Shown in pieces: positions 2,216 to 62,159 of a DNA stretch of 64,000 bases. Below the pieces are notes generated by a model that saw only the letters and a program-made list of their open reading frames with translations, was not told where the DNA came from and did no database searches. This DNA is from Malassezia japonica (lineage: Eukaryota > Basidiomycota > Malasseziomycetes > Malasseziales > Malasseziaceae), in contig NC_083370.1 of NCBI RefSeq assembly GCF_029542785.1, forward strand, positions 496,001 through 560,000, written 5' to 3'. Every line of letters starts with the position of its first letter. Position 1 is the first letter of the stretch. A program made the position numbers and the translations under genes.

Positions 2216-3792
2216 CTAGCCGGCGTGCTGCACGACGTGCGTCGTGACCGTGGCGCGGTCCTTGCGCGCGAATGTGTGCATGAGCTGCTCGGGCAGCGGC
2301 AGCTCCTCGTACTCGCCCGGGACGCCGACCACGGGAATGCTCACGTTCAGCGCGCTGCTCTTGGACGTCACGACTTCGGTCCCGAGACCGTCGTCGGACA
2401 GGTAGATCTGGCCGCCGTCCGTGTTGTCCACGAGGACCGTGGGCGTCTGGCCGGTGATCTGCGCGGTGAACGACTGGCACCGGGTGATCTCGAGCGACGA
2501 GACGAGCGTGTTGAGCAGCACCGACGTCTTTTTGCACGAGACTGCGTCAGTAAACGACACGTACCGAGGGAGACGGCATTCACCTTGCCGCGCACTTCAA
2601 TCACGCACTCGTCGCAGTTGAACACGTTGATCGTGTGGCTGAGCTCGGTCTGGTCAATGACGATCTGCTCCTTGACATAGTTTTCCTGTGTGAGCTGCGC
2701 GACGTACGACCGTCCACTTGTTCCCCTCGAGCACCTTGGACGCGGGCTTCTTCTTCGGGGCAGCCGCAGGCGCCGCGGAAAGCGCCGTGGGCTTCTCGGC
2801 GACGACCGGCGCATCCTTGCGCAGCGTGGGATTCTTGTGCGTCATCTCACTCGCGTCGACACGGCGCAAGGAGCGCGTGATGTTCTCGCCCTGGTTGATC
2901 TGCCCAAACACGGCGTCCATCCCGCCGGCGGCCGGCGCGGCGCCCGCCGCGGGCGGCGCCGGCGGCGGCGGAGGAATGCCGGCGGGCGGCGGCGGCGGCG
3001 GCGGCGGCACGTCCGACGCGCCGCCCTTCGCGTAGCTCGCAAGGTCCTGGCCGCTGGCGTTCCAGACAAGGCCGGTCGTGTGGTGCGCCTTGACGTACGC
3101 ACGCAGCGTGTCCAGGAGCGACGTAAACGAGCGTGCCCACACGACGTGCTTCTTGTCGCTGCATAAGCCACTCGACGTACCCATCCTTGTGCTCCTTAAT
3201 GACACGATTCGCGAAGAACTCGGCGCTCTCCTTCATGTCCGCAGTGTACGGCGCGGGGGTCTTTTCGACGGCGATCCAGCCGAGCGCGGGGATGCCTTCG
3301 CTGACCGTGCTGAGGTGGTTAAAGAGCGCCTTTTCGCCGCGGTTCTTTTCCCGCAGCTCGACGATGCGCTGAATCGACCCCTGCAGCGGCTGCAGGAGCG
3401 GCGCGACGGCCGGCGACGCCATGCCGTCGGCCGGCAGCTTGCACACGGTCGCCGTCTGCACAATGTCGCGCGTGTGCCCAAACGCCGCCTGCACCTCGGC
3501 CGCCTGCTCGGCGACAAGCGTACCGATGGCCGCACTCGCCTCGACAAACTTGGCCAGCGCAGGGCCCACGTCCGCGTCCCACGCGCTCACCGCGAGCGCG
3601 TCGGTCGTCGGCGCCTCCCGCGTGGTCTCGGCGACGGGGGCGACGGCCGGCGCCTCGCTCGGCACGGGCGCATGGCCCGCCTGCGCAATCGCAATGTCCT
3701 CCAGCCGCGACGTGGCCGCCTCGAGTCTACATCAGCACGTCCACGCACCGCTTGATGAGCGTGCTCAGATTCCCAATCCCGGTCGTGCTCAT
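2216..3792 (-). CDS. SRV2: Adenylyl cyclase-associated protein (CAP/Srv2), 5 exons
   Basis: Actin-monomer recycling factor that also binds adenylyl cyclase in fungi. Exons are 3792-3749, 3726-3181, 3158-2708, 2685-2565 and 2541-2216. The introns at 3727-3748, 3159-3180, 2686-2707 and 2542-2564 are 22, 22, 22 and 23 nt. Splicing gives 495 aa. The N-terminus carries the cyclase-binding signature (LIKRLEAATSRLEDIA), followed by the helical CAP-N domain and HHTTGLVWN. A polyproline stretch lies around residue 250 and the CARP beta-helix domain at the C-terminus (KVNAVSLVSCKKTSVL crosses the last intron). Length and domain order match the family. Without removing the mini-introns the gene looks broken in four places. 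NDC80 ends 21 bp upstream on the same strand. Confidence 0.93.
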
Positions 3793-3813
3793 CGTGATTA
3801 CAAGTGGAGGTGG

Positions 3814-5634: not shown

Positions 5635-5676
5635 GGTAACACAAACAAACCGCGACGCGTGTGTCACGTGACTACC
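5635..5676. promoter_or_regulatory. 42-bp divergent spacer with CACGTG
   Basis: Only 42 bp separate the NDC80 start codon (minus) from the GH5 start codon (plus). The palindrome TCACGTGA sits at its right end, with its core at 5665-5670, six bases before the GH5 ATG. It is probably a shared compact promoter; factor binding is inference. Confidence 0.45.
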
Positions 5677-7663
5677 ATGTTGGACGTACGCGAAACGCTC
5701 CGCGACGCGCACGGACGTCAAGTGCTCCTGCGCGGCGTGAACCTGGGGGGGACCAGCAAGAGCCCCGCCGGCGTGGGGTCGTACCAGAAGCAGAAAGAGG
5801 GGGAGTGTACATTTGTAGGGCGCCCAGTGCCGCTCGACGAGGCGGACACGCACTTGGCGCGGCTCAGGCAATGGGGCTTCACGGCGCTCCGATACGTCTT
5901 TACGTGGGAAGCACTCGAGCACGACGGGCCGTATGTGCATGGGCTTATGCAGAGGCGTATACGACCGGGAGTACATTGCGTATACCGTCGAGGTGCTCAG
6001 GCGCGCCAGAGCACACGGATTCTATGTCGTGATGGATCCGCACCAGGACTTGGTACGTAGATAGGCTCACCAGTTCTCGCGCTTTGCGGGGGGGTCCGGC
6101 GCACCGGTGTGGGCATTGTATGCGGCCGGACTCGATCCAGAGGCACTCCACGAGACGCACGCCGCCTTGCTCCACGACGCGTGGGACCCGCCAAAGGACT
6201 ATCCTCCCATGATATGGGCGACCAACTACCACCGCCTCGCGTGCCTCACGCTCTTTACCTTGTTCTTTGCCGGGGATACGTTCGCCAAAAGGTGCACGAT
6301 CGACGACGAGCCCATCCAGGGATGGCTGCAGCGCCATTTCTTGGGGGCCGTCGCCCAGCTCGTCACGGCCGTGCGCGAGGCGGACCTCTTGGACGAGTGT
6401 GTCATCGGATGGGATAGCCTCAACGAGCCGCATCCGGGCCTCGTCGGCGCAGACCTGCGCGCGCGGCCAGGGCCCATGCGCCAGGGGCCGATGCCGACGC
6501 CGTTTGAAAGCATGCTCCTCGGCGAGGGAGAGGCCGTCACGCTGCCCACCTACACGTTCGGCGCACTCGGCGCGCGGCACACGGGCAGCGTGCACGTCGC
6601 GCCGAAACGAGGCGTGTGGCTCACGGCCGACGCCGACGCCGCTCGGGGGGCAGGCCGCTACGGCTGGCGCCGCGGCGCGGCGCGGCCGGGCTGCGTCTGG
6701 GCCCAGCACGGCGTGTGGGACACAGAGTCCAAGACGCTCTTGCAGCCCGACTACTTTCGTGCAGACTTTGTCGAGGGATTCTGGCTGCCGCACTGGGCCG
6801 TGTATACGCGCCTCGTTCGCAGCATCCATGCACGGGCCATCCTCTTTGTCCAGCCGCCCGTCTTTGCGCCGCCGCCGCACGCGATCCGCGCGCTGCTCGA
6901 CGAGCGCGCATGCTCAAGCGCGCACTTTTACGACGGCCTGACGCTCGTCACCAAGCGCTGGCACTCGTTCAACGCGGACGGCGTGGGAATCCTGCGCGGC
7001 GCCTACTCGCACGTCCTCTTTGCGCTGGCGCTCGGGCGGCGCGCGGTGCGCGCGTGCCTCGCGCGGCAGCTTGCGCGCCTCGCGGCCGACGTCGCGGAGC
7101 GCATGGGGCCGTACCCTTTCCTGGTCGGCGAGACGGGCGTGCCGATGGATATGGGCGACGCAACCTATGCCGAGCAGGCGCACGCAATGGACGCGACGCT
7201 CGCCGCGTGCGACGCCAACCTGCTCGGGTACTTTTTGTGGACGTACACTGCGGACCACTCGTCCGAGTGGGGCGACCGCTGGAACGGCGAGGACCTCTCG
7301 CTCTGGTCGCCGCACGGACCCGACGCGCGGTGGGCGTATGCGCGCGGTGCCCGCGCGATCGACGCATGGTGCCGGCCGTACGCCCGCGCGGTGCCTGGGC
7401 GCCTCACGCACCTCGCCTTTGACATGACATCGAAAGTGTTTGCCGTGTCCTTTTCCACCGGCGCCCTCCCTGCTGTTGTCGAGGCACGGACCGCCGAGAT
7501 CTATCTGCCGTACATCCACTATGGCCGCGCCGATGCGCGCGGCGCGCTGTCGATCGACGTCACCGCCTCTGACGGCGACTGGACGTGCACAGACCAGCTG
7601 CTCTTGTGGCGCATCGACGCCGACCGATCCGAGCACACGCTGCGCGTGCGCCGCGTGGAATAG
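5677..7663 (+). CDS. GH5 glycosidase, EGCrP2/steryl-beta-glucosidase-like, 3 exons
   Basis: Retaining glycoside hydrolase of family 5, closest in layout to fungal endoglycoceramidase-related or ergosteryl-beta-glucosidases that break down sterol and sphingolipid glucosides. Exons are 5677-5930, 5953-6052 and 6074-7663, with introns of 22 nt (5931-5952) and 21 nt (6053-6073), giving 647 aa. Visible landmarks are LLRGVNLGGTSKSP at the N-terminus, VVMDPHQDL crossing the second intron, WDSLNEPHPG with acid/base Glu near residue 236, and FLVGETGVPMDM with nucleophile Glu near 471. A beta-sandwich-like C-terminal extension follows. There is no obvious signal peptide, which fits the intracellular EGCrP2 class. 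It converges on RNR2 with 41 bp between stops. Exact substrate is not resolved. Confidence 0.85.
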
Positions 7664-9378: not shown

Positions 9379-10172
9379 CTATAGATCCAACTCGGAATAG
9401 TAACGGAAAAGACCATCGCTAAAGGGGCGGCGCCGTGCACTGCCGAGGTACTCTTTGAGCTCCTCGGCGAGCTCGGCACGGAAGGGCTCGAGGTCCGCGG
9501 CATCGCCCGAGTCTTGAAGGCGCTGCATCGCGCGGGGGTGCGCAAAGCGCAGGCCCTCGAGCACCTGGAACAGGACGAGGTCCGCAACGCTCGTCTTGGT
9601 GCCGACGAGGCGGCGCACGTTGTGCCGCTGGCGGTTCAGCGTGAGCGCGGCTTGAAAGTGCTGCGTTAGCAGGGACACGTACCTTGGCAAACTTGGGGAT
9701 GCGCTCGTGCACAAAGGCTTGCGTGTACCGCAGCGCCTCGGGCTTCTGGTCTTCGTAGTAGAGCGCGACAGAACTGGGTTAGGCGTGCGACGTACATGGG
9801 GTGGTGCACATTGTGCGCCTCCAGCGCCCAGTCGAGGCCGGTGAGCGTAAACTGGAGGACTTGCGCGTGCGTCACGTCGGACTCGACGCCGGGCTGCTCG
9901 CCGTCCAGGCCAAAACGCTTCGCAACAAACTGCAAAATGTTGCCCGTCTGGCTCAGGTAGAACGGCGCCTGGCGCTCGGGCTGCACTTCGAGCACCGGCA
10001 CCGCAAACTGGGGCTCGTGCCCGGCTACGCCACCGTCCGCCGACGTAAGTGCAACGAGCTTCCCCACGTCATTCACCTCGGGCAGCGGCACCTTGGCCGC
10101 GGCGAACGCAAGACGCACAAACTCGCCACGACCGGGAATCTGCGGCCAGTAAAATAGGCGGTAGGAGGCCAT
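9379..10172 (-). CDS. Glutathione S-transferase family protein, 3 exons
   Basis: Soluble GST-fold protein, probably conjugating glutathione to electrophiles. Exons are 10172-9796, 9773-9683 and 9660-9379, with two 22-nt introns at 9774-9795 and 9661-9682. The product is 249 aa. The thioredoxin-like N-terminal domain has the YRLFYWPQIPGRGEFVRLAF start typical of sigma/mu-like GSTs and YLSQTGNILQFVAKRFGL, where the SQT/SNT loop binds the gamma-glutamyl group. The helical C-terminal domain includes VGTKTSVADLVLFQVLEGL, the conserved fold-stabilising Asp segment. It lies 24 bp downstream of PRP43 on the same strand, and a CACGTG at 10190-10195 lies 18 bp upstream of its ATG. Substrate unknown. 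Confidence 0.85.
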
Positions 10173-10196: not shown

Positions 10197-12571
<2,375 letters not shown>

Positions 12572-13590
12572 ATGGTAAGTGCTCTGGCTGATGCAGGCGA
12601 CCCCCGCGTTTGGCGCACACGGCGCGAGTGCCGATACCAAGACCGTGGAGACGTACCACGAGGATGCTGTGGTATGTGGAATGGCTGACGCAGCACGATG
12701 CGCAGCTCGACTTTTACGGCAGCAAGCTGGCGACCTGCTCCTCCGACCGCACCGTCAAGGTGTTTGACGTGCAGAACGGCGCGGCGACCGGTGCCGGCGA
12801 GACGCTTGTCGGCCACGAAGGGCCTGTGTGGCAGGTCGCGTGGGCGCACCCGTCCTTTGGCACGATCCTCGCGAGCGCGTCCTACGACGGCAAGGTGTTC
12901 ATCTGGAAGCAGGAGGCCGGTGCCCAGACGTACGGCGCGAGCAGCTGGACGCGCATCAAGGACCATGCGCTGCACACTGCCTCGGTGAACGCCATCTCCT
13001 GGGCGCCGCACGAGCTCGGCGCGACGCTTGCATGCGCGTCGTCGGACGGCAAAGTGTCGGTGCTCACCTTCAACTCGGACGGCTCGTGGTCGGTGGACAT
13101 TGTCACGGCGCACCCCGCGGGCTGCAACGCGGTGTCGTGGGCGCCGGCGGTGGTCGCGGGTGCGGACGCGAACGAGCCCGCGCCGCTCGTCCGCCGCTTT
13201 GCGAGCGCGGGCTGCGACTCGGTTGTAAAGATCTGGGAGTTTAGCGAGGAGGACAACCGCTACATTGAGGTCGAGCAGCTCGCCGGGCACACGGACTGGG
13301 TGCGCGACGTGGCCTTTGCGCCGAACCTCGGCCTGGCACGGACCTACCTCGCGTCCGCGTCGCAGGACGGCACCGTGCTCATCTGGACCCAAAACGGAGC
13401 GGAGGCGCCGTGGACCAAGACCGCGCTACAGCCCAAGAGCAACCCGGCGGACCCCGCCAAGTTCCCGGACACGGTCTGGCGCGTGTCGTGGAGCATCAGC
13501 GGCAACGTGCTGGCCGTGAGCTGCGGCGACGGCAAGGTCTCGCTCTGGAAGGAGAACCTCAAGGGCGCTTGGGAGTGCATCAGCGAGTAG
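12572..13590 (+). CDS. SEC13: COPII and nuclear-pore WD-repeat protein Sec13, 3 exons
   Basis: Six-bladed WD40 protein shared by the COPII coat (with Sec31) and the Nup84 subcomplex. Exons are 12572-12574, 12597-12671 and 12694-13590, with two 22-nt introns at 12575-12596 and 12672-12693. The product is 324 aa. The first coding exon is just the ATG. Spliced exon 2 to exon 3 gives VETYHEDAVHDAQLDFYG, the characteristic Sec13 N-terminus, followed by LATCSSDRTVKVFDV and repeated GHEGPVWQVAW and GHTDWVRDVAF blades. The length is typical for the family. The unspliced frame from 12610 would give a wrong N-terminus, so the conserved VETYHEDAVHDAQ decides the model. Confidence 0.95.
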
Positions 13591-13717
13591 GTACCGAGCG
13601 ACTCACCCAGCCTCGACGCATAGTCGGCCGCCCGCATCTCCATAGCGCTGTACCGAAATGAGTTCCTTGCTTGATTCTTCCTCCACGCGAAATTGGGCCA
13701 TTTTCCGCTCCACTACG

Positions 13718-16356: not shown

Positions 16357-16637
16357 ATGTCTGCCGCTTTCCGGCCGTTTGTGAACACGTTCAACTACCT
16401 GGTATGTCGCGAGGCTAACGTTCAGCGCCAGTCTGCGCACGAGCGCCCGATCGTCTTTTTCTCGCTGCTCGTCGGCTTTGTGGGCCCGACGGCGGTGATT
16501 GGCGTGCCGCGTGTGCGTGCCTCGTACGGCTGGAAGCCCGCGGAGCGCATTCCCGTTACCTATCCGCGTACGTATGCATTTCTAACGCAGTGCCCGACAG
16601 GCCGCGGGAGCCGGTGACGGGATACGATGACGAGTAA
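16357..16637 (+). CDS. NADH dehydrogenase 9.5 kDa subunit (NDUFA3-like), 3 exons
   Basis: Small single-membrane-span accessory subunit of mitochondrial complex I. Exons are 16357-16401, 16426-16567 and 16591-16637, with introns of 24 nt (16402-16425) and 23 nt (16568-16590). The product is 77 aa. Spliced, it reads RPFVNTFNYLRQSAHERP, then a hydrophobic span (IVFFSLLVGFVGPTAVIGV), ERIPVTYPLPDRP and the GYDDE end. This matches the layout of the fungal NI9M subunit (SHEKP, membrane span, IPxTYPxP, GYDD). The first intron is frame-neutral and has no stop, so an unspliced reading would silently insert eight residues. Two CACGTG sites lie just upstream at 16297-16302 and 16307-16312. Confidence 0.82.
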
Positions 16638-16674: not shown

Positions 16675-18110
16675 CTAGAGCGCGAGCACCAAAAAGCTGA
16701 AGCAGCTGCCTGCCGTCAGTCCCAGCACGAGCCAGAACGAGAGGATCATGGATGCGATCGACGCGTCGCCGTCGAGCGGCGCATTCGGCGCATCGAGCAG
16801 GCGGTCCTGCTCCACGTCGTCCGTAGCTGCACTTTCGAGGGGGACCGCGGTGCCGGGGCGCTTCTCGAGGAGCTTCGGGCCCGAGATCAAAATCGAGGTC
16901 GAGTTGCACCCGGTTGTCACGCCCAGGAAAAAGACCAGCGCGAAAAAGACGGCGTCGGGCAGCGCCCACGCGGGCGTCTTGTTGCTCTCGCCCACCAGAT
17001 TGCACGCAAAGAACAGGGGGAAGAAGAAGAAGCGGAGCGTCGTGCACGCAAGCGACACCCATCCGCGACGGATCAGCAGATAGGTCGAGAGCACAGGCAG
17101 GCGCCGGCCGATCAGGTCGCCGAGATTCATCGCGACAATGTGCAGCGCGACAAACACGCTCGCACTCTCGACGAGCGTCCCGTCGGGGCGCGAGTGCACC
17201 GAGCGCGCTTGAGACGTCAGCGCGGGGTACACGCCGAGCGTCACGAGGAACACACAAAAGATGCTCGCGGACCACGGCAAGATGCGCTTTTGCACGCGCA
17301 TCAGGCGCCGGAAGCCGTCGGACGAGCGGGAGCGCTCCTCCGCCCCGGCACCCCACTCGTCCATCCGCGCCGAGACCGCGGGGAGACGCAGCGCGCGCCA
17401 GAGGCACACGAGCGTCGTCGCCTGCAGAAGCGTCGTGGTGAGAAACACGGCCATGGCCGCGTTTGCATTCTCGTGCGCCTGCTTTGTGTCGGACGACGGC
17501 GCACCTTTGTCGAGCTGCACGGCGAGCATCGTGGACACCAGGTTGACCACACTGCCAAACACGCCTTGCAGCGCCTGCCCGGCAAGCATGTAGCCCATCA
17601 GCGTGCCGTCGACCGTGAGCTGTGTACAGATGACCATGATGGCACTCTGCATAAACGCCTGGGCCACCGCAAGCACCACCGATATTCCAAGCAGAAAGAC
17701 ATAGTAGGGGTATACAGCCTCCAGCGGCTCCGTGCCGCGCACCGGCACCGACACAGCGAGCACGAGGAAGCCGCCGATCGATGCATAGAGCGCGCGCACC
17801 ACGCGGTGCATTGGACTCGCCTGCATTAGTCTCGCCACCTACATCTTTTCGCCCACCACGCATCGTCGCGAGGATCGCACAGAAAACCGACGTCACATTG
17901 AACACGGTCATGATACCGCTGCTAAACGTCGTCGCGACACCGGGCGCGAGCCGGAATGCATCGTGGAAATAGGCCATCGATGTCACAAGCGTGTTGCTAC
18001 ATAAGCACAATAACATACAATGGCGCAAGCATGCTCATCCCGAGCAGCACCGCGAGCCACTTCACCAGCGCAATGCGCCCCGGCGAGCCTGCTGGCCGCG
18101 CCGCCTCCAT
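16675..18110 (-). CDS. Equilibrative nucleoside transporter, 3 exons
   Basis: Multi-spanning transporter of the ENT/SLC29 family (yeast Fun26 relative), moving nucleosides or nucleobases across plasma or vacuolar membrane. Exons are 18110-18019, 17996-17843 and 17820-16675, with two 22-nt introns (17997-18018, 17821-17842). The product is 463 aa with about 11 hydrophobic segments. Splicing of exons 1 and 2 restores the hallmark first helix GMSMLAPFNTLVTSMAYF, where most ENTs have PWN. The loop between the two halves is charged, as in the family. The gene converges on the complex I subunit gene with 37 bp between stops. Confidence 0.88.
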
Positions 18111-22323: not shown

Positions 22324-22869
22324 ATGCCGACGACTTCTGGTACGTAGATGCGCGGCTGACCCCGAGAGACTGCGAGCTTCCGCTTTAACCAGTAGGTGGC
22401 TTTTCTGACGCAGCACGATGCTCCGTGTGAAGGACCCCAAAAAGTCGCTCGACTTTTACCAGGACGTGCTGGGCATGACGCTCATTGACACGCACGAGGC
22501 CTCCGACTTTACGCTGTACTTTTTGGGCTACGAGCACCAGAAGGGTGTGCCCCGTGGCGAGCGTGAGGCGCTCCTCGAGCTCACGTACAACCACGGCACG
22601 GAGAAGGACCCCGACTTCCACTACCACAACGGCAACACGGAACCCCAAGGCTTTGGCCACATTGCCATCTCGGTGGACAACATCCAGGAGGCGTGCGAGC
22701 GCTTTGAGCGTCTCGGCGTGCGCTTCCAGAAGCGCCTGACAGGTACGTGCCTTGGCTAACGCAGACGGCAAAATGAAGACGATCGGTACGTTGCGCGACT
22801 CACGCAGCCTTTATCCTCGACCCCGACAACTACTGGATCGAGGTGGTTCCCTCGCAGGGCGGACAGTAA
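22324..22869 (+). CDS. GLO1: Lactoylglutathione lyase (glyoxalase I), 5 exons
   Basis: Metal-dependent enzyme that isomerises the methylglyoxal-glutathione hemithioacetal. Exons are 22324-22339, 22367-22391, 22414-22742, 22765-22785 and 22808-22869. The introns are 27, 22, 22 and 22 nt. The product is 150 aa, one glyoxalase module as in animals, not the double-module yeast form. Spliced motifs are SFRFNHTMLRVKDPKKSLDF (metal-binding region), LELTYNHGTE, GFGHIAISVDNI and DGKMKTIAFILDPDNYWIEV, each crossing or flanking a mini-intron. Exon 4 is only 21 nt. The first intron ends in GAG rather than CAG and is the least certain splice. CACGTG lies upstream at 22266-22271. Confidence 0.92.
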
Positions 22870-40185: not shown

Positions 40186-40267
40186 TCTGTATTGTAGCTC
40201 GGCCGCGGCGCGCGTGGCAATCCAAAATTTTGGCGCACAAGCCTCCCATTTTTTTTCTGCCGACGAA

Positions 40268-43551: not shown

Positions 43552-44938
43552 ATGGCGACGCTGCGCCGCTGCATCCAGCCGGGCGACTGGGTGATTGTGT
43601 TTGCCGTACGTGTTTCTTCTCACATAGTCGCGCGACCGCACCCCGACACCGGTCTGTGTCGAGGCCGGGCAGCAGCTCGTGAACCTCTACGGGACGTTTC
43701 TGCACGATGACATGGTCGGGCAGCCGTACGGCTGCAAGCTGCATTCGCGCAACCGCAAAGGGTTTGTGTACCTGCTGAAGCCTACGCCGGAGCTGTGGAC
43801 GATCTCGCTGCCCCACCGTACGCAGATCCTGTATGCGCCGGACATGGCCTTTATCGTGATGAAGCTCAACCTCTCGCCGGGCGCGACGGTGATCGAGTCG
43901 GGCACCGGCTCGGGCTCGTTTACGCATACGCTCGCACGCACCGTCGCGCGGGGCCCGCCGGCTGGCGATGGCGTGGGGCAGCTGCCGGCGACGTGGAACG
44001 GCGCGAACGCATCGCCTGGCTATGCGCCGGGGGCGTACGACGGCCGTGTGTACTCGTTCGAGTTCCACGCGGAGCGCGTCGAGAAAGCGCGCGCCGAGTT
44101 TTCCGAGCACGGCCTCGACAAGACGGTCGTGCTCGAGCACCGCAACGTGTGCAAAGACGGCTTTGGGCTGACGAGCGCGGCCGACGCCGCGTTCCTCGAC
44201 CTCCCGGCGCCGTGGGAGGCCGTGCCGTTTGCCAAAGAGTCGCTGCGCGCGGATGTCGTGACGCGCATCTGCTGCTTCTCGCCGTGTATTGAGCAGGTGC
44301 TGCGTACGGTCGCGGCGCTGTCCGAGCACGGGTTCAGCGACGTGTCGACGTACGAGAGTCTTATCCGGACGCACGAATCGCTGACCAATGTTGCGCCGCT
44401 CGAGCCGATCAAGGACGTCGTCGACCGGATCCGCGACAATGAGCGCCGCCGTGAAGGCCGCCGCGAGATGCAGATGGCCAACTCGCGCATGGAGCGTGAA
44501 AAGAGGGAGGCTGCAAAGAAGAAGGAGAGCAAGGAAGAGCGAGAGGGAGGCGATGGGAGTGGCGAGGTCGAGGTCGACGACGAGGCCACGGAAACCGAGG
44601 CGAAGGAAACCGATGGCAGCGCCCAGCCCGAGACCGAGACGCACGGCCTTGCCGACGTATCGATGCACACCGAGCCCGCCGACTCTGCCGAAACGCCCTC
44701 GGACGAGCCGGCCAAGCGCAAGGCCGACGACGGCGACGAGCCGGCCACCAAGCGCCGTACGCAGCCGGCAGACGACGGCCCCGCCGAGCCTCCTGCCGAG
44801 ATGCTGTACAGCGCTGGCTTCCGCCAGCGCCTCGAGCTACGTCCGCTCACGCCGACCAACGTGTACTCGCGCCCCTTTCCCCAGATGCGCGGCCACACGA
44901 GCTACTTGACCTTTGCGACGCTCCTCCCCCGTACTTAA
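43552..44938 (+). CDS. TRM61: tRNA m1A58 methyltransferase catalytic subunit (Trm61), 2 exons
   Basis: Catalytic subunit of the Trm6-Trm61 complex that methylates A58 of tRNA, important for initiator tRNA stability. Exons are 43552-43605 and 43628-44938 with one 22-nt intron (43606-43627); product 454 aa. Motifs: CIQPGDWVIVFA joined to SRDRTPTPV, YGTFLHDDMVGQPYG, ILYAPDMAFIVMKLNLSPG and the SAM loop VIESGTGSGSFTH. A glycine/proline-rich insertion follows near 140, and a long acidic/lysine linker (about 300-405) precedes the conserved C-terminal MRGHTSYLTFATLLP. Its stop codon overlaps the stop of the convergent TRM7. Confidence 0.93.
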
Positions 44939-45779: not shown

Positions 45780-47281
45780 ATGGACGCCGACGCGATTGCC
45801 CAGAAGCGCGCGGCGCGCGCGGCGAAAAAAGCGCAGGCAGGCGCGGCGGGCACGCCTGTTCCGCCGGCAGACCATCTGATTCGGAAGCGCGAGTGGGTGC
45901 CGGTGCGCGATGCGCCGGACGGCGGGCGCCGCGTACGTGTCGTGAGCTGGAATATGCTGGCACAGTGCCTCGTCCGCCGCGAGCTCTTTCCGGGCAGCGA
46001 CTGCCTCAAGAACAAGGACCGCTTCCCCGGCCTGGCCGCGGAGCTGCGCGCGTACGACTGGGACATTGGGTGCTTCCAGGAAGTCGACTGCATCAAGGAA
46101 CATGCCGATACCCTCGGCAAGGCCGGCTACGCGTACCACTACGAGCGCGGCTACGATAACAAGCTGCACGGCCTGATGATTGCATGGCGCTGCAGCGGCG
46201 ACCGACCGTCGTTTACGTACCCTGTGTACAAGCGCGTCGTGTACTACGACGACGCACGCCCGCTCGAGATTGCGGCACGCGCGCGGGGCGCGCCGCTCGA
46301 CGAGCGTGGCGTGCCGCAGGCGGACGTGTACTTTGCACCGGACTCGGCGGTCGGCGCGGAGGGTGCGCCGCACTCTGCGACGGCCGTCTCGCGCCTGACG
46401 CGCAACATTGCCTGCATCGTCGCGCTGCCGTTTGCCGAAGGCGACGGTGGCGTGATTGTCGCGACGACGCACCTGTTCTGGCATCCCAAGTACGCGTACG
46501 AGCGCGTGCGCCAGGCGGCGATCCTCATGCAGGAGCTCGAGGCGTTCCGCAGCGACCCCGAGCACGCGGACGTTGCGTCGTGGCCGGCGATCCTCGCGGG
46601 CGACCTGAACGACCAGCCGCACTCGCCGACGTACACGCTGCTCACCGGCCAGGGGCGCACGTACGTCGACGAGCTCGCGCAGGCCTTGGGCGAGTCGCGC
46701 ATCGTGCACACGTCCGTTGACGAGGTGCGTGGCATGCGCAGCGCCAACTATGCGGTGACTGTAACAGAGGCCGGCGACGAGGACCGCGTCCTGGGCCGCT
46801 ACCGCCCGCCGGCCAAGAGCGAGCTGCTGACCCTCGAGCAGATTCTGCGCATGTACGAGCTGCCCGCCGCGGACGGCGTCGGGGCGATGCAGAGCGTATA
46901 CGCCGCCGCGCACCCCCGGCTCGTCACGGACGAGTCCAAGACATTCTTTTCGGTACGTACCCCCTCTCACGCAGCGACGCGGCACGCGCTCGGAACGCTA
47001 CGATATCGAGAAAATGCCGGTGCCGACCGACCCCCGCCAGCTGCAGAGCGCCGAGCCGATGTGGACGATGTACTCGTCGCTCTTTCACCTCACGCTCGGT
47101 ACGTCTATTTTCTCACACAGACTATATCCTCCTTGCACCGATGCGCAACACACGCAACGACTACCCGCCGATCACGGCGCTCCTGCGCCTGCACCCCGAG
47201 GACACGTTGCAGCCGGGCGTGCCGCGCAAGGGCGTCTGCAGCTCGGATCATGTGATGCTCGGCGTGGAGCTCGTGCTGTAG
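45780..47281 (+). CDS. NGL2: Ngl2-type RNA exonuclease (EEP family), 3 exons
   Basis: Endonuclease/exonuclease/phosphatase-fold nuclease; yeast Ngl2 trims the 3' end of 5.8S rRNA. Exons are 45780-46952, 46975-47098 and 47121-47281, with two 22-nt introns; product 485 aa. The start is set by AIAQKRAARAAKKAQ, which matches the Ngl-type N-terminus. Catalytic motifs: VVSWNMLAQ, DIGCFQEVD (metal-binding Glu), TTHLFWHPKYAYER, LAGDLNDQPHS (Asp/Asn) and the C-terminal CSSDHVMLG (Asp/His). The last is reached only after splicing both introns. Confidence 0.9.
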
Positions 47282-48900: not shown

Positions 48901-48906
48901 ATAGCA

Positions 48907-49918
48907 CTACGCACTACTCGCATCCAGGGCCGCGTTCGGCACGAGCCCCAGCGCCTTGAGCGTCTCTTGGCGCTCGGCCGCGCCAAAGGTGCGCCGGGGA
49001 AAGGTCGACGAAAACTGCAGCGCGGACGCATCGCCGCCCTTGCCATCCGCAAGCACCGCCTTTTCGAGGTCGGCGAGCGTCGCGTCGGCGGGCAGCGTGC
49101 CCATCCACTGGCCGCCCGGCGCACGGACGCGGAGACGCGCCTCCGTGCCCGCATTCGCGCGGGGCACGGACGCGGTGGGCGGCGGCGCGGGCGCGCCCTG
49201 GGGCGCCGCGCCGGGGAGCGGCGTGCCCTCGCGCAGCGCCTTTTCGCGCGCCGCCTTTTCTGCGCGCGCGCGCTTGTCCTCCTCGATCTGGGCCTTGACG
49301 CGCGCCTTGGCGGCAATGTCATCGGCCTTTTCGCGGCGCTTGCGCTCCGCCTCCTTGATGCGCTCTGTGTGAGTCGGGCGACGTACCCTTGCGCTCGAGC
49401 TCCTCGCGCGCGGCGCCGGCGTCCTGGCCGGCCTTGCGGCGGATCTGCTCGTTGGCGCGGCGCTCGTCGGCGTCCTTTGACGCGTTCGCTGCGCGCTTCT
49501 CCTGCAGCTTGTGGCGCACTGGGTGAGCACGGTGACGTACGCTCGGCGAGGCGCTGCTGCTTCTCCTCCTCGGTCAGCGGCTGGATCTCCTCGGTGCTCT
49601 CTTCAAAGTCGTCGTGGCCCGACTTGTCCGCATGGTACATCGCGAGGTCCATGTCGCGGAACACCTTGTCGCACTCGCGGCAGCGGATGGACTGGGTGAG
49701 ATGCGTGGCGTACCTTGGGCGCCTCCGAGGCCGGCGCCTCGCTCGCTTCGCGCCAGTTTTCCGGCATCGGCTCGTCCTGGTGCGCCTCGAGGTGGTCGAG
49801 CGCGGCCTGCATCCCAGAAGACTTGGTCTCCTGGAGCGCCCAGTCGACGCGGTCCTGCTCAAATCCCATTTCCAGCACTGCGTCAGCCACACGACCTACA
49901 TGCTTCGCGGTCCCCCAT
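48907..49918 (-). CDS. UBA-UBX protein (UBXN1/SAKS1-like), 5 exons
   Basis: Ubiquitin- and Cdc48/p97-binding adaptor. Exons are 49918-49900, 49877-49714, 49691-49541, 49518-49387 and 49364-48907. All four introns are 22 nt (49878-49899, 49692-49713, 49519-49540, 49365-49386). The product is 307 aa. The UBA domain starts directly after exon 1 (LLEMGFEQDRVDWAL). A C2H2-like finger (CRECDKVFRDMDLAMYHADK) leads into SGHDDFEESTEEIQPLTEEE, nearly as in human UBXN1. A charged coiled coil follows, then the UBX domain (RLRVRAPGGQWMGTLPADAT, LQFSSTFPRRTF with the FP-type p97 loop). The first coding exon is only 19 nt. Confidence 0.9.
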
Positions 49919-49953: not shown

Positions 49954-51915
49954 CTACGACTGGAGGGGGCCTTCAAAGGTAAGCGCGACGCGGCGCTTTT
50001 TCTTCTTGGCCTCGAGCTCGGTGGGGGGTGCGTGGCTGGGTTCGGCGGAAGGCTGCGCTGCCGGCTGTGCAGCCTGCGGCGCCGGCGCGCTCGCGGCGTG
50101 GCTCGCGGCGTGGCCAGCGTGCTCTGCTTCTTGGGGTATCGACGCCTCGGCACGCGGGGCGCGGCGCAGCGATGGCTGCAGCGTGTAGTTGTATGGCCGG
50201 CCCAGCTCGTTGTAGTCAAAGACGGCCACGGAGCAGTACCCGTCGGAGGACGACATCATCAGCAGCTGGCCGTCGGGGGACCACGACAGGTCCGTAAAGG
50301 ACGCATAGTGCAGGTTGCTAAAGCAGCACAGCGGCGCAGCCTGCTGTGTGTCATAGACCCACACACTCTCTTGCGTTGCAATGGCATAGACCATGCGGTA
50401 CGGCAGCGAAAACGCGCTCGTCGCCGCCGCCGTCGCAAGGCTCGCTTCGCGCACATGCCCGGGCTCGAGCGGCACGTCGGGCATCGGCGGCGCGGCCTCG
50501 GCGCGGTGCCGCAGGCGGTACAGGATCGGCGAAAAGCGCACGACAAGCGTCACCGACTTGTGCCCGGGCAGCGCGGCGATCGGCGCGTGCGAGCGTGCAA
50601 AGTTCCCGCGGCCGTACAAGTACACGGCGCTCGATTGCCCCGCACGCTGCTCGCTCGCGCTCGGCGGCGCGTACTGCCCGGTGGGCGTCGCAAGCAGCGC
50701 GCCGTCCGGCGAAAAGGCGAGGCGGCGGAAGAAACTGCTGTAGCGGTCGTCGCCATACAGCTTCAGCGCCGACGCGCCCGGCGCGGTCGGCGCGCCCAGC
50801 ATACGCTCGCGGGGCGACGGCGGCGCACGGATCGACGGCAAGGGCGCGGGCGATGCGGACCGCCCCGAGGCGGCCGACGGCGAGCGCGACGGCGTCGGCG
50901 GCGCGCCGAGCGACTGCGCGTGCGTCGAATCGGTCGGCGCCGGCGACGGCGCTGGCATCGGCGTGCTTTCGCGTGTCGACGGCTTCGCGTCGCTCTCTGA
51001 CGCACGCTCGTCCTTGTCGCTGCTCGCGACATCGACCTTGGCGTGCCGGCTCGCGATCTGCACGTCGCGGATCGTGTCATTGTGTCCTCGCACGAGGTTG
51101 TAGAGGTGCACCGCGCGGTCGCTGCTCTGCGTCGCGAGGAACTGGTTCAGGGGGTCCCATGCCACGCCTTGCACATAGTGCTGGTGCTCGGAAATCTCGC
51201 GCGTGACGGTCCCGTCGGCCGCGTTGATGATGCGCGCCGCAAAGTCGGTGCCGCCGACAAGGACCGATTCCCCGTCGGGGCTCCATGCCATATCATACAG
51301 CTCCTGCGACGTGGCACGCGTCATGATCCGCACGCGCCACGACTCCTTCTCGTACAGCGCCTCGCCATCGGCGCCAAACTGGCTCTCGCCAAACGACGGG
51401 CGCATTTGGTCGCTGCGCACCCAGAACAGGACGGTGCCGTCGTCGCCCGCCGACGCAAGCACGTCGCCAGCCGGCGAGAAGCGCACGACGTTCACGACAC
51501 CAGTATGCCGCGAGAGCGTCGCCGCGTACTCCGCCCGGGGGGGATGCACCGGCGTGCCCGACGCGCCGGCCGCGGCAAGGGCCGCGGGCGAGGGGATATT
51601 CGGATGGATCGTCCAAATCTGCGTCAGGAAAGCGACGTACGCGGACATTATTATCGCCACCGGCCGTAGCTAGCCGCCAGCTCTGGCCACCAGCGAGAAT
51701 CGGCGCTTGGTGCTCGTTCTGCGCCTCGCTCCCGTCGCCAGCCAAGTCGTGTCCGGGCGGCAGTCCAGCGGCTGCGTCAGAAATAACTACCTACCTTGGC
51801 CGAGATTATGGTCCAGCACTTTCGCAAGGCGCACAGGCGCAATCGACTGAAAGTCACACGAGTAGATGGGCAGCGTGTCGTGCCATCGGATCTCAAACGT
51901 CACACAGCGCACCAT
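49954..51915 (-). CDS. CAC2: Chromatin assembly factor 1 p60 subunit (Cac2), 3 exons
   Basis: WD40 subunit of CAF-1, which deposits H3-H4 behind replication forks. Exons are 51915-51795, 51771-51641 and 51618-49954, with introns of 23 nt (51772-51794) and 22 nt (51619-51640); product 638 aa. Spliced, it begins VTFEIRWHDTLPIYSCDFQ and continues SWRLATAGGDNNVRIWTI, the CAF-1 p60 signature. Repeats include LSRHTGVVNVVRFSPAGDVL and LYDMAWSPDGESVLVGGTD. A Ser/Pro-rich loop (about 225-330) interrupts the propeller. The last blade is FTDLSWSPDGQLLMMSSSDG, then an Ala/Pro-rich tail. Confidence 0.93.
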
Positions 51916-53160: not shown

Positions 53161-54255
53161 ATGAATGCTACGGTATACACAGAGTGCTTTCCGTACGTGT
53201 AATTCGCTGATATAGCCCTGCGCCAACATGGTCCATTGACGATATGCCGAACCAGACGGGCCGCGTACGTCCTTGTCCTAACCCAGGTCGTGATCGTGAC
53301 GGGCGGCAACTCGGGCATCGGCCTCGAGACCGTGCGGGCGCTGCTCCGCAAGGGCGCCAAGGTGTACATGGCTGCGCGCAACGAGGCCAAGGCACGCAAT
53401 GCGTTTGTCAAGCTGCGCGAGGACACGGCGACGGCCGCCGGCGCGGTCGACTTCCTCCACCTGGACCTGGCGAGTTTCCGGAGTATCGAGCAGTTTGTGC
53501 GCGACTTTCAGCGCCGCGAAGAGCGTCTCGACCTTCTCTTTAATAACGCAGGGCTCTTGGTGCCGAAGGACAATGGCGAAAAGACGTCCGAAGGCTACGA
53601 GATCCACATGGGCGCAAACGGCCTCGGCGTGTACTATCTCACGCAGCTGCTGATCCCCTTTCTCAAGATGTCGTACAGCCTGAACCCCGCGCGCCCCCCG
53701 CGCGTATGCTTCACGTCGAGCCTTGGGCACCGCGCCGCACCAAAGTGCGGCTTTGATCCGTCGGATCCCAGCGGCGCCAACATCCGCTTCCGCATGCTCC
53801 CGCGCGAGGTGCAGGCATACGCGAACAGCAAGATGGCCAACCTGCTCTGTATGTACCTTTTCTGACCCAGCGGCGCGCAAGATGCACCGCACCTACGGCA
53901 AGGACGGTATTATTTTGTACGTCTCGCCTCTGACCCAGCAACGCGTGTAACCCCGGCAACATTAAATCAGCCCTCACGCGCGACGTGTCCGGCCCGTCGG
54001 TTTTGCTCCTGAACCATGTCGTGAACCCCTACTTTTTGCACGCGCCCGAGCTCGGCGCACTGACGCAGCTCTACGCAAATACCTCGCTGGAAGCCGGCGA
54101 GGACGGCGGCGTGTACTACATTCCGTGGGCGCGCCGCGGCGAGTCGGTTCCTGCGGGAAACAGCACCGAGGCACAGGACAAACGTACGTCACGCGCCTAA
54201 CGCAGTGGCCGCCTACTTTGACGCACAGATTGCGCAACACGCCCGCCCTGTTTAA
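53161..54255 (+). CDS. Short-chain dehydrogenase, tandem copy 1, 6 exons
   Basis: NAD(P)-dependent oxidoreductase of the classical SDR type related to retinol dehydrogenase/WWOX-like proteins. Exons are 53161-53192, 53216-53264, 53287-53848, 53871-53916, 53939-54183 and 54206-54255; introns are 23, 22, 22, 22 and 22 nt. The product is 327 aa. Motifs: VVIVTGGNSGIGLETV (cofactor), LLFNNAGLLV, FTSSLGHR (catalytic Ser) and YANSK (catalytic Tyr and Lys). Introns 3 and 4 flank a 46-nt exon that is absent as a separate exon in copies 2 and 3. Substrate unknown. Confidence 0.85.
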
Positions 54256-54302: not shown

Positions 54303-55325
54303 ATGCTGACTGCGCTTTTCCCGTACGTGTGCGTTCCTGATCCAGCCCGCCCGCTACGTGGGACCCTGAGCAGGGTATCCCCGACCAATCTGGACGTGTA
54401 GGTAGTGCGTGCTAATCCAGGTTGCGATTGTCACTGGCGGCAACACCGGTATCGGCTATCTGACAGTGTACTGGCTCCTCAAGAAGAATGCCAAGGTGTA
54501 CCTCGCTGCGCGCAGCGAAGGCCGCGCGCGCGAGGCGATCCAGAAGCTCGAGGCGGAGAACCTGCCTGGTTCGGTCGAGTGGCTGAAGCTCGACCTTGCC
54601 GACCTGAACAGCGTCAAAGCGTTCGCGACCGCTTTCCAGGGCAAGGAGAAGCGCCTCGACCTCTTGTTTAACAATGGCGGTGTGATGTATCCCAGGCTCA
54701 TGCCGGACACGGTCGATGGGTACGAGATGCACCTGGGCACAAACGGCCTTGGTCACCACTACCTCACCAAGCTCCTGCTGCCGACGCTGCTCGCCACGCA
54801 GAAGGTTTCGCCGTCGAACCCGCCGCGCGTGTGCTTCACGTCGAGTCTCGCACACCGCTTCGCCTCCGCCGAGGGCTTCAAGCCCGAGGACCCGACTGGG
54901 CTAGGCTCGCGGCCCTTTTATCTCTCCCCCGCCTCGCGCGCGTACGGCACGAGCAAGCTGGTCAACATCCTCTCGGCCAACAAGTTCCAGCGCCAGTACG
55001 GACCCGAGGGTCTCGTCTTTACCTCGGTCCACCCGGGCATTCTGTACACCGAGCTGATGCGCGACTGGAACCCGCTGTTTGGCGTGACGCAGCTTATCCA
55101 GTCCTACCTCTTCTACCCCGCTTCCATGGGCTGCCTGACGCAGCTCTTTGCCAACACGGCTCCGGAAGCCGCCAAGAAGGGCGGCAGCTACTTTGTGCCG
55201 TGGGCGCGTGAGGCCGAGCCGATGCCTATTGCGCACGACAAGGCGAACCAGGATGCTTGTATGTTCCTTTACTCACTCCAGTCGATGCCTGGGTCGACGT
55301 GCAGGTTGCCAAGCACGTCAAATAG
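54303..55325 (+). CDS. Short-chain dehydrogenase, tandem copy 2, 4 exons
   Basis: Paralogue of the preceding gene. Exons are 54303-54322, 54346-54397, 54421-55258 and 55282-55325; all three introns are 23 nt. The product is 317 aa. The first two introns are at the same codons and phases as in copies 1 and 3 (after the FP of the N-terminus and after the xGR before the cofactor loop). Motifs: IVTGGNTGIGYLT, LFNNGGVMYP (NNGG in place of NNAG), FTSSLAHR and YGTSK. It lacks the two middle introns of copy 1. CACGTG lies 28 bp upstream (54270-54275). Confidence 0.85.
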
Positions 55326-55488: not shown

Positions 55489-56536
55489 ATGCTGTCGTTT
55501 GTGTTTCCGTAGGTAGCGATTCTTGACCTAGGCCTCCGTGCGAATGGGATCCGGCCAAGGACATGCCTGACCAGACCGGCCGTGTACGTCTCTTGCACTT
55601 ATGCAGGTCGCCATTGTGACAGGAGGGAACTCGGGTATTGGGTTTGAGATCGCGCGGTGGCTTTTGCGGAAGAATGCCAAGGTATACATTGCGTCCCGCA
55701 GCGAGCAACGTGCCAACGTCGCCATCAAGAAGTTTAAGGAGGAGGGCCTGCCTGGCGATGCCATTTACATGACCCTGGACCTCGGGAGCCTGGTGAGCAT
55801 CAAGAAGTTTGTTATTAGCTTCTTGGCCCGCGAGCAGCGCCTCGACCTTCTCTTCAATAATGGCGGCATTACGAATTTGGACGTACGTGCATCTACTCAC
55901 CCAGCTCCACGCTACGACAGTCGATGGTTACGAAACGAATATGGGAATCAATGCTCTGGGGCCGCACTATCTCACGCAGCAGTTAATTCCGGCGCTGGTT
56001 GCTTCCTACAGAACCACGCCAGAAAACCCCCCTCGGGTATGCTTTACGTCCAGCCTGTTGCACCGCGGCGCGTCAGCCAAGGGCTTTGACCCCGAGGACC
56101 CCTCGGGCCTCAAGGCACCGCGTCCCTTTGGGCTGGCGCCCCAAATGCGCGCGTACGGTTCGAGCAAATTTGCCAACATCCTCTCGGTCAAGAAGCTGGA
56201 CCGCCAGTACGGCCCCGACGGCATTGTCTTTACCGCTGTGCACCCCGGTGGGCTGCGTACGGGAATCTTGAAGGACAGTCCGGGCCTGTTTGGCGCCGCG
56301 CTACGACTCACGTCCCAGCTCTTTTTCTACCCGCAGGAAATGGGCGCACTGACGCCGCTCTACGCAGGCACCGCCCCCGAGACGGCGAAAAAGGGCGGAC
56401 GCTACTTTGCCTCGTGGGCGCGCGAGGTGGAGCCCATGACGCTGACAGAGCACGAAGGGATCCAAGATGCATGTACGTCTCATCTACTCACTCAGTCGAC
56501 ACATGGGTCAGCGAGCAAGTGTCCAAGCACACGTAA
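55489..56536 (+). CDS. Short-chain dehydrogenase, tandem copy 3, 5 exons
   Basis: Third paralogue. Exons are 55489-55508, 55532-55583, 55607-55882, 55905-56472 and 56496-56536, with introns of 23, 23, 22 and 23 nt; product 318 aa. Motifs: IVTGGNSGIGFEIA, LFNNGGITNL (NNGG), FTSSLLHR and YGSSK. It has its own intron (55883-55904) directly after the NNGG strand, at a place where copies 1 and 2 have none. The final intron (56473-56495) is shared in position with the last intron of copies 1 and 2. Confidence 0.85.
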
Positions 56537-59953: not shown

Positions 59954-60019
59954 ATCGGGCCATGTCCGTGCGAAAAAAAAAATTGATTGGTCATCCACTG
60001 GGGTTCTTTAGCGTCCGGG

Positions 60020-62159
60020 ATGTACCACCGAGCATATTGTGTGGGGCGCGCTGCGCTAGGAGCGGGAGCGTTGCGCTACGCGCGGGCGCGTGCTGCCGCG
60101 ACGCCCTGGCTGACTCGGGCGCTTTCTACGGACGGCGAACCACATTCATTTTCTCACGCCCACTTTGATACCGCCCGCAATCACAACAACGAGCCCCCCA
60201 ACGATGCTGGCGAAGAGGCCGCGCCGAAGGAGCACGCGGTCATCTCCATGTTTGACCTCTTTTCGATTGGTATTGGCCCCTCGTCCTCGCACACTGTCGG
60301 CCCGATGCGCGCAGGCGCCATTTTTGTGAACGACTTGCGCGAGTCGCAGCTGTTGGATAAGGCCAACACGCTCAAGATTGCTCTCTACGGCTCGCTGGCC
60401 GCGACCGGCAAAGGACACATGACGCCCCAGGCACTGCTGCTTGGATTTGAAGGCGCAGACTGCGAGACGGTAGACACCGAGGCGGTGCCGACGCGTTACG
60501 AGGCGATCCTCCGCGACAAGGTCCTGACGCTCGGCAAGGATACGGATGCGTCCTACGGCGACGCGAAAGCTATCGCATTTGACTTTGAAAAGGACCTCGT
60601 GTGGAAGTGGGGACAGACGCTTCCAATGCATTCGAACGGCATGCGCTTCAGCGTCTTTGACGTGAACGGCGATTTGATTGCGACCAACGACTTTTACAGC
60701 ATCGGCGGCGGGTTTGTCATCAACGGCAAGATGGCCGTCGCCGATGTCCCGGGTCCGCGGCCGATGCGCGAGGGCCTCGAGGCGCCGGACGGTGCACAGG
60801 AGCCTGGGTTCCCTCACGAAGCCGCGCCGACGACGGCCGTCGTGCCGACCGACGCGGACAAACACCCCGAGGATATGCTCGAAAACGTCTTTTACAAGTC
60901 GATCCGCCGCGACGATGCGGGCGGCGATCGCCGCAGCGGCGTCACGCCGCACGCGGACGAGACGGACCTCCCGCCGAAGCTCTTGTCCATCGGCGGCGAC
61001 GTCCAGGATGAGCCCGACCGCCCCACGCCAGGCCAAAAAGAGCCGCGCTTTCCTTTTCACAACATGGCCAGTCTGCTCGCGCTCACGCGCAAGCACAACC
61101 TGACCATTGCCCAGATTGTCTACGAGAACGAGCTGACGTGGTACACGCCCGAGGAAATCGACGAAAAGATTATGCGGATCTGGAGCGTGATGGACGAGGG
61201 GATCCGCGCGGGCGTGCACAGCACGCAGGAAGTCCTTCCCGGCTCGCTGCAGATGAAGCGCCGTGCGCCAAAGCTCTACCGCCGCCTGATGCGCGGCCTG
61301 TACATGGGCCCCCGCCGCCTCGGCAACATGAACGGGCCCGACACGGACGAGATCGAGCGGCCAAAGGGTGCGGGCGAGGTCGAGCGCCTCCCCAAGCCGC
61401 AGCGCGATGCGCCCAGCGTCCCGGCCAAGTACATGCGCCGCGAGGCATCGCGCGCGCCGACGATCCGTGGCTCGTTCCAGCACGAAATCATGCCGGTGCC
61501 CCCCCGGCGCACCAACTTTCCGGCGATGGACTGGCTCTCGTGCTGGGCGATTGCGACGAACGAGCAGGTCGCGGCCGGCGGCCGTATTGTGATTGCGCCG
61601 ACGCTCGGCGCGGCCGGCATCATCCCCGCAGTCCTGCGCTACGTCGTGGAATTTGTCGCGCTCTCGCCCGAGGACGAGGAGAATCTCGTGCGCACCTTCC
61701 TTTTGACTGCCGCAGCGATCGGCATGCTCTTTAAGCGCGGTGCGACGATCAGCGCCGCCGAGGGCGGGTGCATGGCCGAGGTCGGCACGAGCTGCTCGAT
61801 GGCCGCCGGCGCCTTTGCCGCGTGCATGGGCGGCAGCCCGGAGGTGATTGAGCAGGCCGCCGAGACGGCGATCGAGCACAACCTGGGCCTTACCTGTGAC
61901 CCGGTCGACGGCCTGGTGCAGGCACCGTGCATTGAGCGCAACGCGGTCGGCTCGGTAAAGGCCGTCGTCAGCGCGAACCTCGCGCTGTCGTCCGACGGCG
62001 TGCACTCCATCTCGCTCGACGAGGCGATCCACGCTGCGCGCATTACTGCCGCGGATATGCACATGAAATACAAAGAGACTAGGTACGTGCTTCTACTGAC
62101 GCAGTCTGAGCGGCCTGGCCACCACGGTCAAGATTCCCGTCGCGGTGCCCGAGTGCTAG
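60020..62159 (+). CDS. Bacterial-type iron-sulfur L-serine dehydratase, 2 exons
   Basis: Single-chain [4Fe-4S] L-serine ammonia-lyase (SdaA class) converting serine to pyruvate and ammonia; not the PLP-type enzyme usual in fungi. Exons are 60020-62092 and 62115-62159 with a 22-nt intron (62093-62114); product 705 aa versus about 455 in bacteria. N-terminus RAYCVGRAALGAGALRYARA looks like a mitochondrial presequence. The beta-domain starts SMFDLFSIGIGPSSSHTVGP. The catalytic domain has EGGCMAEVGTSCSMAAGAF, EHNLGLTCDPVDGLVQAPCI and ERNAVGSVK. Cys584, Cys626 and Cys637 have the 42- and 11-residue spacing of the known cluster ligands. After splicing the protein ends VPEC, and a C-terminal Cys is the fourth ligand in the family. 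Extra insertions lie around 250-330 and 430-490. Confidence 0.9.

Follow-up and report, generated by a model that had tools for sequence, protein, structure and literature searches.

Introns of the fungal genus Malassezia have appeared in print as "very short introns" (PMC7426719). In the available passages of the reports on single species, the M. restricta annotation works with a minimum intron of 20 and then of 15 (PMC6473144), median intron length is 30 nucleotides (nt) in M. restricta and 40 nt in M. arunalokei (PMC9241646), M. globosa introns average 79 nt (PMC4634964), and M. sympodialis is classed as intron-poor (PMC8476143). The available passages on M. japonica give nine chromosomes and leave introns unmentioned (PMC7025860). 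Further afield, the clearest anchored branch points in the survey of Irimia and Roy, as excerpted, are those of intron-poor species with strong motifs (PMC2483917). The subject here is a class of introns that are unusually short and uniform by fungal standards, most of them exactly 22 nt long, found in a stretch of 64,000 nt of the M. japonica genome (contig 1, bases 496001-560000, called the window) and in samples taken elsewhere in that genome. They are almost certainly U2-type spliceosomal introns, reduced in length down to an edge at 21-22 nt and built on one layout, most commonly GTACGT-N7-CTNAY-N-CAG.

The genome comprises 8,433,779 bases on nine contigs. The window (G+C 61-70%) was analysed together with 20 segments of 10 kb each, drawn from contigs 1-8, giving 264 kb, and all genome-wide statements rest on this ~3% of the genome from eight of the nine contigs. 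Both strands were scanned for GTANGT..CTNAYNYAG without gene models. The window yielded 34 matches at 22 nt and 9 at 23 nt and the 200 kb elsewhere 47 and 7, against 0.0 matches per replicate at either length in order-3 Markov controls (10 replicates). A narrower scan for CTRAY only returned 19 matches at 22 nt and 8 at 23 nt in the window, compared with 0 and 0.1 in the controls.

The length class also emerged from a codon-based gene finder that was run on the window and the 200 kb with a flat length prior of 10-150 nt and with GT..AG as the sole sequence requirement: 47 of its 136 introns are 22 nt long. Chance GT..AG pairs that bridge frameshifts, sequencing errors or pseudogenes could produce calls of this kind, and six decoy end pairs indeed gave similar totals (121-135 calls each), while some introns produced by the gene finder were false. 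The decoys nevertheless show no spike, with 4, 4, 3, 2, 3 and 7 calls at 22 nt in runs that reused the codon table trained with GT..AG. Given in addition the excess of motif matches over the Markov controls, the conserved residues regained at junctions and a public M. japonica protein that is spliced identically (both described below), the probability of such an artefact is practically negligible. The spike at 22 nt is real, and the observation of short introns made in an earlier note on this DNA is confirmed. No class of long introns was accepted alongside it: 51 of the 136 GT..AG calls exceed 35 nt, fewer than the 84-110 made per decoy pair outside the range of 15-35 nt. Both long window calls that were examined are wrong, as 3727-3844 merges two genes across a 22-nt intron and 40111-40197 stands in place of the true intron 40111-40133.

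A second gene finder used site profiles learned from 79 introns of 15-35 nt and a flat prior of 14-400 nt. It called 219 introns, 93 of 22 nt and 20 of 23 nt, and its long calls are often doubtful. Motif matches of 21-28 nt number 134, of which 131 are in the sense orientation of a gene model, 2 are antisense and 1 falls outside (the models used the site profiles); 58 of the 134 were called by the motif-free gene finder too.

Removal of the introns restores the frame and conserved residues, a claim of the earlier note that held up against PDB proteins. The comparison took in 24 junctions of eight proteins, with alignments judged by eye and gapless taken to mean within about three residues. Alignments covered 20 junctions, 17 of which are gapless: three in glyoxalase I, one in tyrosyl-tRNA synthetase, two in SEC13, four in CAP, one in Prp43, two in the NEDD8 E1 regulatory subunit (NAE1), three in TFIIS and one in the DnaJ-domain protein, where the junction sits at the edge of the alignment. 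TFIIS regains the conserved C-terminal end found in its PDB relatives only when 40111-40133 is removed. In glyoxalase I, a 21-nt exon (window 22765-22785) lies between two 22-nt introns and aligns gap-free to human GLO1.

For three genes (NAE1, a UBX gene and an SDR gene), junctions were also checked against listed relatives, at most 120 per gene. The fractions of these relatives that are gapless, junction by junction, are 100/118, 111/119, 17/120, 74/119 and 98/116 in NAE1 (background 0.80), 106/109, 31/120, 118/120 and 118/120 in UBX (background 0.86), and 81/101, 111/113, 114/119, 109/118 and 107/115 in SDR (background 0.80), which places 11 of the 14 junctions at or above background. The SDR gene is one of three adjacent paralogues (46-47% identical to SDR gene 1) that have three intron positions and phases in common and differ in intron sequence. 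The public M. japonica protein MJAP1_000324 equals the UBX model after removal of four 22-nt introns (100% identity over 307 amino acids), and the short introns are therefore partly annotated already. No protein labelled M. japonica occurs among the 120 matches listed for NAE1 or for SDR.

The window contains 63 introns of 21-32 nt, 38 at 22 nt and 13 at 23 nt; the earlier note had arrived at 62, 38 and 13. Fifty-nine of them are gene-finder calls that combine a GT[AG]NG[TC] start with CTNAY (37 at 22 nt, 11 at 23 nt) and sit in 24 of the 36 window gene models. The remaining four were added manually with the earlier reader's counts known. Two of these, 39117-39138 and 55509-55531, are gene-finder calls with the branch points TTAAC and TTGAC, respectively, and two, 40111-40133 and 16402-16425, come from the CTRAY-only motif scan. 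The called introns 19863-19886, 45933-45965 and 63339-63368 were dropped for not having both motifs, and 16402-16431 was dropped in favour of 16402-16425; 45933-45965 would also delete residues weakly kept in related nucleases. Two members are doubtful: 22340-22366 ends in GAG, and 25434-25461 may begin at 25440 instead (22 nt). The introns are listed below, with gene names assigned from PDB matches, Pfam matches and listed relatives.

2542..2564, minus strand, 23-nt intron, CAP/Srv2, junction gapless against PDB
2686..2707, minus strand, 22-nt intron, CAP/Srv2
3159..3180, minus strand, 22-nt intron, CAP/Srv2
3727..3748, minus strand, 22-nt intron, CAP/Srv2
5931..5952, plus strand, 22-nt intron, gene with glycoside hydrolase 5 C-terminal domain
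6053..6073, plus strand, 21-nt intron, gene with glycoside hydrolase 5 C-terminal domain
9661..9682, minus strand, 22-nt intron, glutathione S-transferase-like gene
9774..9795, minus strand, 22-nt intron, glutathione S-transferase-like gene
10359..10390, minus strand, 32-nt intron, Prp43 helicase, junction gapless against PDB
12575..12596, plus strand, 22-nt intron, SEC13, directly after start codon
12672..12693, plus strand, 22-nt intron, SEC13
13587..13610, plus strand, 24-nt intron, SEC13, final codons
13841..13862, plus strand, 22-nt intron
16402..16425, plus strand, 24-nt intron, small protein gene at 16357, added manually from motif scan
16568..16590, plus strand, 23-nt intron, small protein gene at 16357
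17821..17842, minus strand, 22-nt intron, nucleoside-transporter-like gene
17997..18018, minus strand, 22-nt intron, nucleoside-transporter-like gene
21054..21075, plus strand, 22-nt intron, tyrosyl-tRNA synthetase, junction gapless against PDB
22009..22036, plus strand, 28-nt intron, tyrosyl-tRNA synthetase
22340..22366, plus strand, 27-nt intron, glyoxalase I, doubtful (GAG end)
22392..22413, plus strand, 22-nt intron, glyoxalase I
22743..22764, plus strand, 22-nt intron, glyoxalase I, precedes 21-nt exon
22786..22807, plus strand, 22-nt intron, glyoxalase I
24621..24645, minus strand, 25-nt intron, gene with weak zinc-finger match
25434..25461, plus strand, 28-nt intron (or 22 nt from 25440)
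29443..29464, minus strand, 22-nt intron, ubiquitin carboxyl-terminal hydrolase gene
29657..29678, minus strand, 22-nt intron, ubiquitin carboxyl-terminal hydrolase gene
36012..36034, plus strand, 23-nt intron, NAE1
36231..36252, plus strand, 22-nt intron, NAE1
36423..36443, plus strand, 21-nt intron, NAE1
36979..37000, plus strand, 22-nt intron, NAE1
37233..37254, plus strand, 22-nt intron, NAE1
38198..38219, minus strand, 22-nt intron, DnaJ-domain gene
38506..38529, minus strand, 24-nt intron, DnaJ-domain gene
38924..38947, plus strand, 24-nt intron, small protein gene at 38894
39008..39029, plus strand, 22-nt intron, small protein gene at 38894
39117..39138, plus strand, 22-nt intron, small protein gene at 38894, branch TTAAC
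39392..39416, plus strand, 25-nt intron, TFIIS
39912..39934, plus strand, 23-nt intron, TFIIS
40111..40133, plus strand, 23-nt intron, TFIIS, added manually, removal restores conserved C-terminus
40457..40478, plus strand, 22-nt intron, CBF/Mak21-family gene
43606..43627, plus strand, 22-nt intron, GCD14-family tRNA methyltransferase gene
46953..46974, plus strand, 22-nt intron, endonuclease/exonuclease/phosphatase-family gene
47099..47120, plus strand, 22-nt intron, endonuclease/exonuclease/phosphatase-family gene
49365..49386, minus strand, 22-nt intron, UBX gene
49519..49540, minus strand, 22-nt intron, UBX gene
49692..49713, minus strand, 22-nt intron, UBX gene
49878..49899, minus strand, 22-nt intron, UBX gene
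51619..51640, minus strand, 22-nt intron, CAF1B/HIR1-like WD-repeat gene
51772..51794, minus strand, 23-nt intron, CAF1B/HIR1-like WD-repeat gene
53193..53215, plus strand, 23-nt intron, SDR gene 1, position common to three paralogues
53265..53286, plus strand, 22-nt intron, SDR gene 1, shared position
53849..53870, plus strand, 22-nt intron, SDR gene 1
53917..53938, plus strand, 22-nt intron, SDR gene 1
54184..54205, plus strand, 22-nt intron, SDR gene 1, shared position
54323..54345, plus strand, 23-nt intron, SDR gene 2, shared position
54398..54420, plus strand, 23-nt intron, SDR gene 2, shared position
55259..55281, plus strand, 23-nt intron, SDR gene 2, shared position
55509..55531, plus strand, 23-nt intron, SDR gene 3, shared position, branch TTGAC
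55584..55606, plus strand, 23-nt intron, SDR gene 3, shared position
55883..55904, plus strand, 22-nt intron, SDR gene 3
56473..56495, plus strand, 23-nt intron, SDR gene 3, shared position
62083..62104, plus strand, 22-nt intron, serine dehydratase gene

The intron at 25434-25461 has two donors, separated by six bases, for a single acceptor and may thus have an alternative 5' site that keeps the frame. An ARAGORN call of tRNA-Ala at window 43397-43476 (minus strand) is likely false; the window has no Rfam match at gathering scores.

Across the sampled 264 kb, 140 introns of 18-34 nt have an anchored branch point. Their lengths are 21 nt (n = 1), 22 nt (n = 90), 23 nt (n = 19), 24 nt (n = 7), 25 nt (n = 9) and longer (n = 14), and 137 of them are at most 28 nt long, which makes a narrow dominant class below 30 nt within this set limited to 18-34 nt. 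With 152 gene models in the same sequence, the density is about one intron per model, and the 85 anchored introns of the 200 kb sampled elsewhere extrapolate to a genome total of ~3,600. The sample thus supports the genome-wide spliceosomal class proposed in the earlier note.

The layout was measured on 154 introns of 18-70 nt, after 20 of 174 without a CTNAY-like branch point had been set aside. In 93 of these introns the branch A occupies base 17 and in 21 base 18; it is followed by exactly 5 bases in 131, and 90 combine an A at base 17 with 5 bases after it, which amounts to 22 nt. The 3' part is therefore nearly fixed, and added length falls mainly between the 5' site and the branch point. 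A "near-fixed length", as claimed before, accordingly holds for the 3' part, while the length as a whole has a sharp edge with a tail. The 5' consensus is GTACGT in 89 of 140 introns and GTANGT in 81 of the 93 22-mers (GT..AG itself was imposed by the search), and 90 of these 93 end in CTNAYNYAG. Information content among the same 93 is 0.1-0.4 bit at each of the seven middle positions and 0.04 bit at the third base of the branch motif. The most frequent branch hexamer occurs in 22 of 140 introns, and no hexamer is found in over half. Base +4 is C in 70% of the 219 calls and in 80% of the 22-mers although the U6 ACAGAGA is unchanged; no pairing reason for this was found.

The introns fit the U2-type class, as they have its 5' consensus, a branch motif with a matching box in U2 and a frame and residues that are restored by removal. 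The U2 small nuclear RNA (snRNA) lies on contig 2 (C2:763486-763677) and carries the branch-recognition box GTAGTA, and U6 lies on contig 9 (C9:407313-407417) with ACAGAGA intact. Inserts this short are unusual for a fungal spliceosome and might instead be removed by an endonuclease and a ligase, as in HAC1- or tRNA-intron-like splicing, or be skipped by ribosomal bypassing. The GT..CTNAY..AG pattern with its branch A at a fixed place and the presence of U2 and U6 speak against such routes, which are very improbable. In budding yeast, a short distance between branch point and AG can make Slu7 and Prp18 dispensable. Loss of 3'-site factors was rejected as a cause here: Slu7, Prp18 (two matches, the second of which contains a stop), SF1 and large U2AF all match in the genome, and the short 3' end is therefore not due to loss of the tested factors.

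Several points weigh against the assignment to spliceosomal introns. Removal from transcripts at exactly these ends is something that we infer from the DNA. The match to large U2AF scores 224 bits, where the family cut-off is 310. Rfam gave no U1 snRNA at E up to 10, a result that, as the tool warns, is no proof of absence. An altered U1 5' end pairing with GTACGT was not found either, as the genome contains no ATACTTACCTGG. Three genome matches to ATACGTACCTGG were rejected as U1, since they read as opposite-strand 5' sites, one of them clearly followed by a 22-nt intron, and the three loci have no Rfam RNA at E up to 1. Three of the 20 PDB-covered junctions, all in NAE1 (codons 230, 408 and 485), fall at small indels in the human protein; the proteins of M. 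furfur and M. vespertilionis have no gap at any of the three. Among the listed relatives, NAE1 230 (17/120), NAE1 408 (74/119) and UBX 62 (31/120) are below background and lie in variable stretches. Finally, motif percentages among profile-called introns are partly circular because the site profiles came from 79 introns called by the first gene finder. The flat-prior decoy comparison and the Markov motif scan are free of this circularity.

Relatives were compared as proteins only. In those with at least 50% identity, 69 inserts of 6-14 residues were checked for back-translation to GTRNGY..CTNAYNYAG. A fit was obtained for 7 inserts near a junction (17 failed) and for 3 elsewhere (42 failed). 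Register is exact in all ten fitting inserts, and all seven near junctions share the M. japonica intron phase. Of 3,600 random windows, 76, 28, 38 and 56 fit at lengths of 7, 8, 9 and 11, respectively (27 tries each). There are seven distinct fits, in M. obtusa MOBT1_001225 (listed as P0001, with the same three in P0004) and in the relatives listed as P0046 and P0123. A further look-alike in P0123, at UBX codon 62, was split by the alignment and left uncounted. On the simplest reading, the inserts of 7, 8 and 11 residues would be unspliced introns of 21, 24 and 33 nt, read as coding because multiples of three keep the frame. Only such multiples are detectable as inserts, and the test says nothing on the real length spread in those species. 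The three fits away from junctions represent one site, NAE1 codon 297 (window 36645), where the M. japonica model has no intron. An extra short intron is apparently present there in M. obtusa and P0046, pointing to intron gain or loss among close species.

For the proposed mechanism, the spliceosome would recognise the 5' site and the branch point as it normally does and would take as 3' site the AG beginning three bases past the branch A, in a layout without room for a polypyrimidine tract there. The sharp lower edge may reflect a limit on how close 5' site and branch point can lie, and the fixed geometry may compensate for the degenerate branch motif. Deletion pressure in a compact genome could have pushed the introns to this edge, with a short tail left above.

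The uniform length could also stem from history, or from selection for the frame shift caused by a retained intron (22 nt = 3n+1), instead of from a spacing limit of the spliceosome. This alternative would fit the 161 called introns of 21-32 nt, of which 110 are 3n+1, 28 are 3n+2 and 23 are 3n. It would also fit the apparent 21-nt members at the same places in M. obtusa and close relatives, because of which the edge is not exactly 22 nt across the genus. However, the step from 1 of 140 introns at 21 nt to 90 at 22 nt with a tail above, as well as length variation that falls mostly between 5' site and branch point, fit a spacing limit, and a retained intron carries its own stop in just 53 of 152 cases. 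Such an origin is on balance unlikely. The earlier proposal of a spliceosome "close to its steric minimum" is plausible but stays an inference, given that SF1, large U2AF, Slu7, Prp18, U2 and U6 all match in the genome. As a general limit, 22 nt does not stand because other organisms have introns of 15 and 18 nt, as cited in excerpts of PMC12316389.

A broader reading of the spacing limit is offered tentatively, at slightly less than an even chance. M. japonica and close relatives may possess a ruler-like spliceosome in which the spacings from 5' site to branch A (base 17) and on to the intron end (5 bases) are nearly locked, so that geometry supplies information missing from the degenerate branch motif. 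Typical intron length would then differ by single bases from one close species to the next (22 nt in M. japonica, perhaps 21 nt in M. obtusa), with 21-nt introns turning up in public proteins as spurious insertions of 7 residues. A culturable fungus whose introns, in their thousands, are close to minimal size and almost equal in length would be a handy system for asking what the minimum intron length is and what causes it. In practical terms, gene callers with a minimum intron above 22 nt, or those that read through multiple-of-three introns, yield wrong Malassezia proteins.

The rigid geometry and the sharp 22-nt edge seem to be undescribed within the literature searched, which excluded the paper behind the M. 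japonica annotation and the M. sympodialis genome paper (10.1093/nar/gkx006). In the literature found on 22-nt introns, Malassezia appears in no title or abstract opening. The introns of M. restricta and M. arunalokei are short like those of M. japonica, but the available passages on them give no single 22-nt class or fixed layout. The earlier statement placing known introns near 20 nt mainly in nucleomorphs and some ciliates is incomplete, as, going by excerpts, Trichomonas has introns of 23-25 nt (PMC12316389) and short Malassezia introns have been published (PMC7426719, PMC9241646).

In Yarrowia lipolytica, a branch motif, two bases and AG likewise form the 3' end without a polypyrimidine tract. 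According to the excerpted survey, its introns have a median of 204 nt, are few and share one branch hexamer in 71% (PMC2483917). M. japonica agrees with this type in the fixed distance from branch point to AG (131/154), whereas a dominant hexamer is missing (22/140) and the density is not below ~0.15 introns per gene. Anchored branch points occur in M. japonica together with a degenerate motif and a density of about one intron per model.

In Trichomonas vaginalis, type B introns resemble those of M. japonica in their length of 23-25 nt and in a branch site fused with the 3' site. The passages available list 24 of them in the genome, T-rich and alongside a class of 56-196 nt (PMC12316389). M. 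japonica differs in having, by extrapolation, thousands of introns and no clear long class.

In nucleomorphs (mostly 18-20 nt) and ciliates (Paramecium ~25 nt, Stentor 15 nt), near-fixed ultra-short introns occur genome-wide according to the same kind of excerpts (PMC5014332, PMC12316389), as they do in M. japonica. These lineages are unrelated and some of their introns are even shorter, whereas M. japonica is a fungus.

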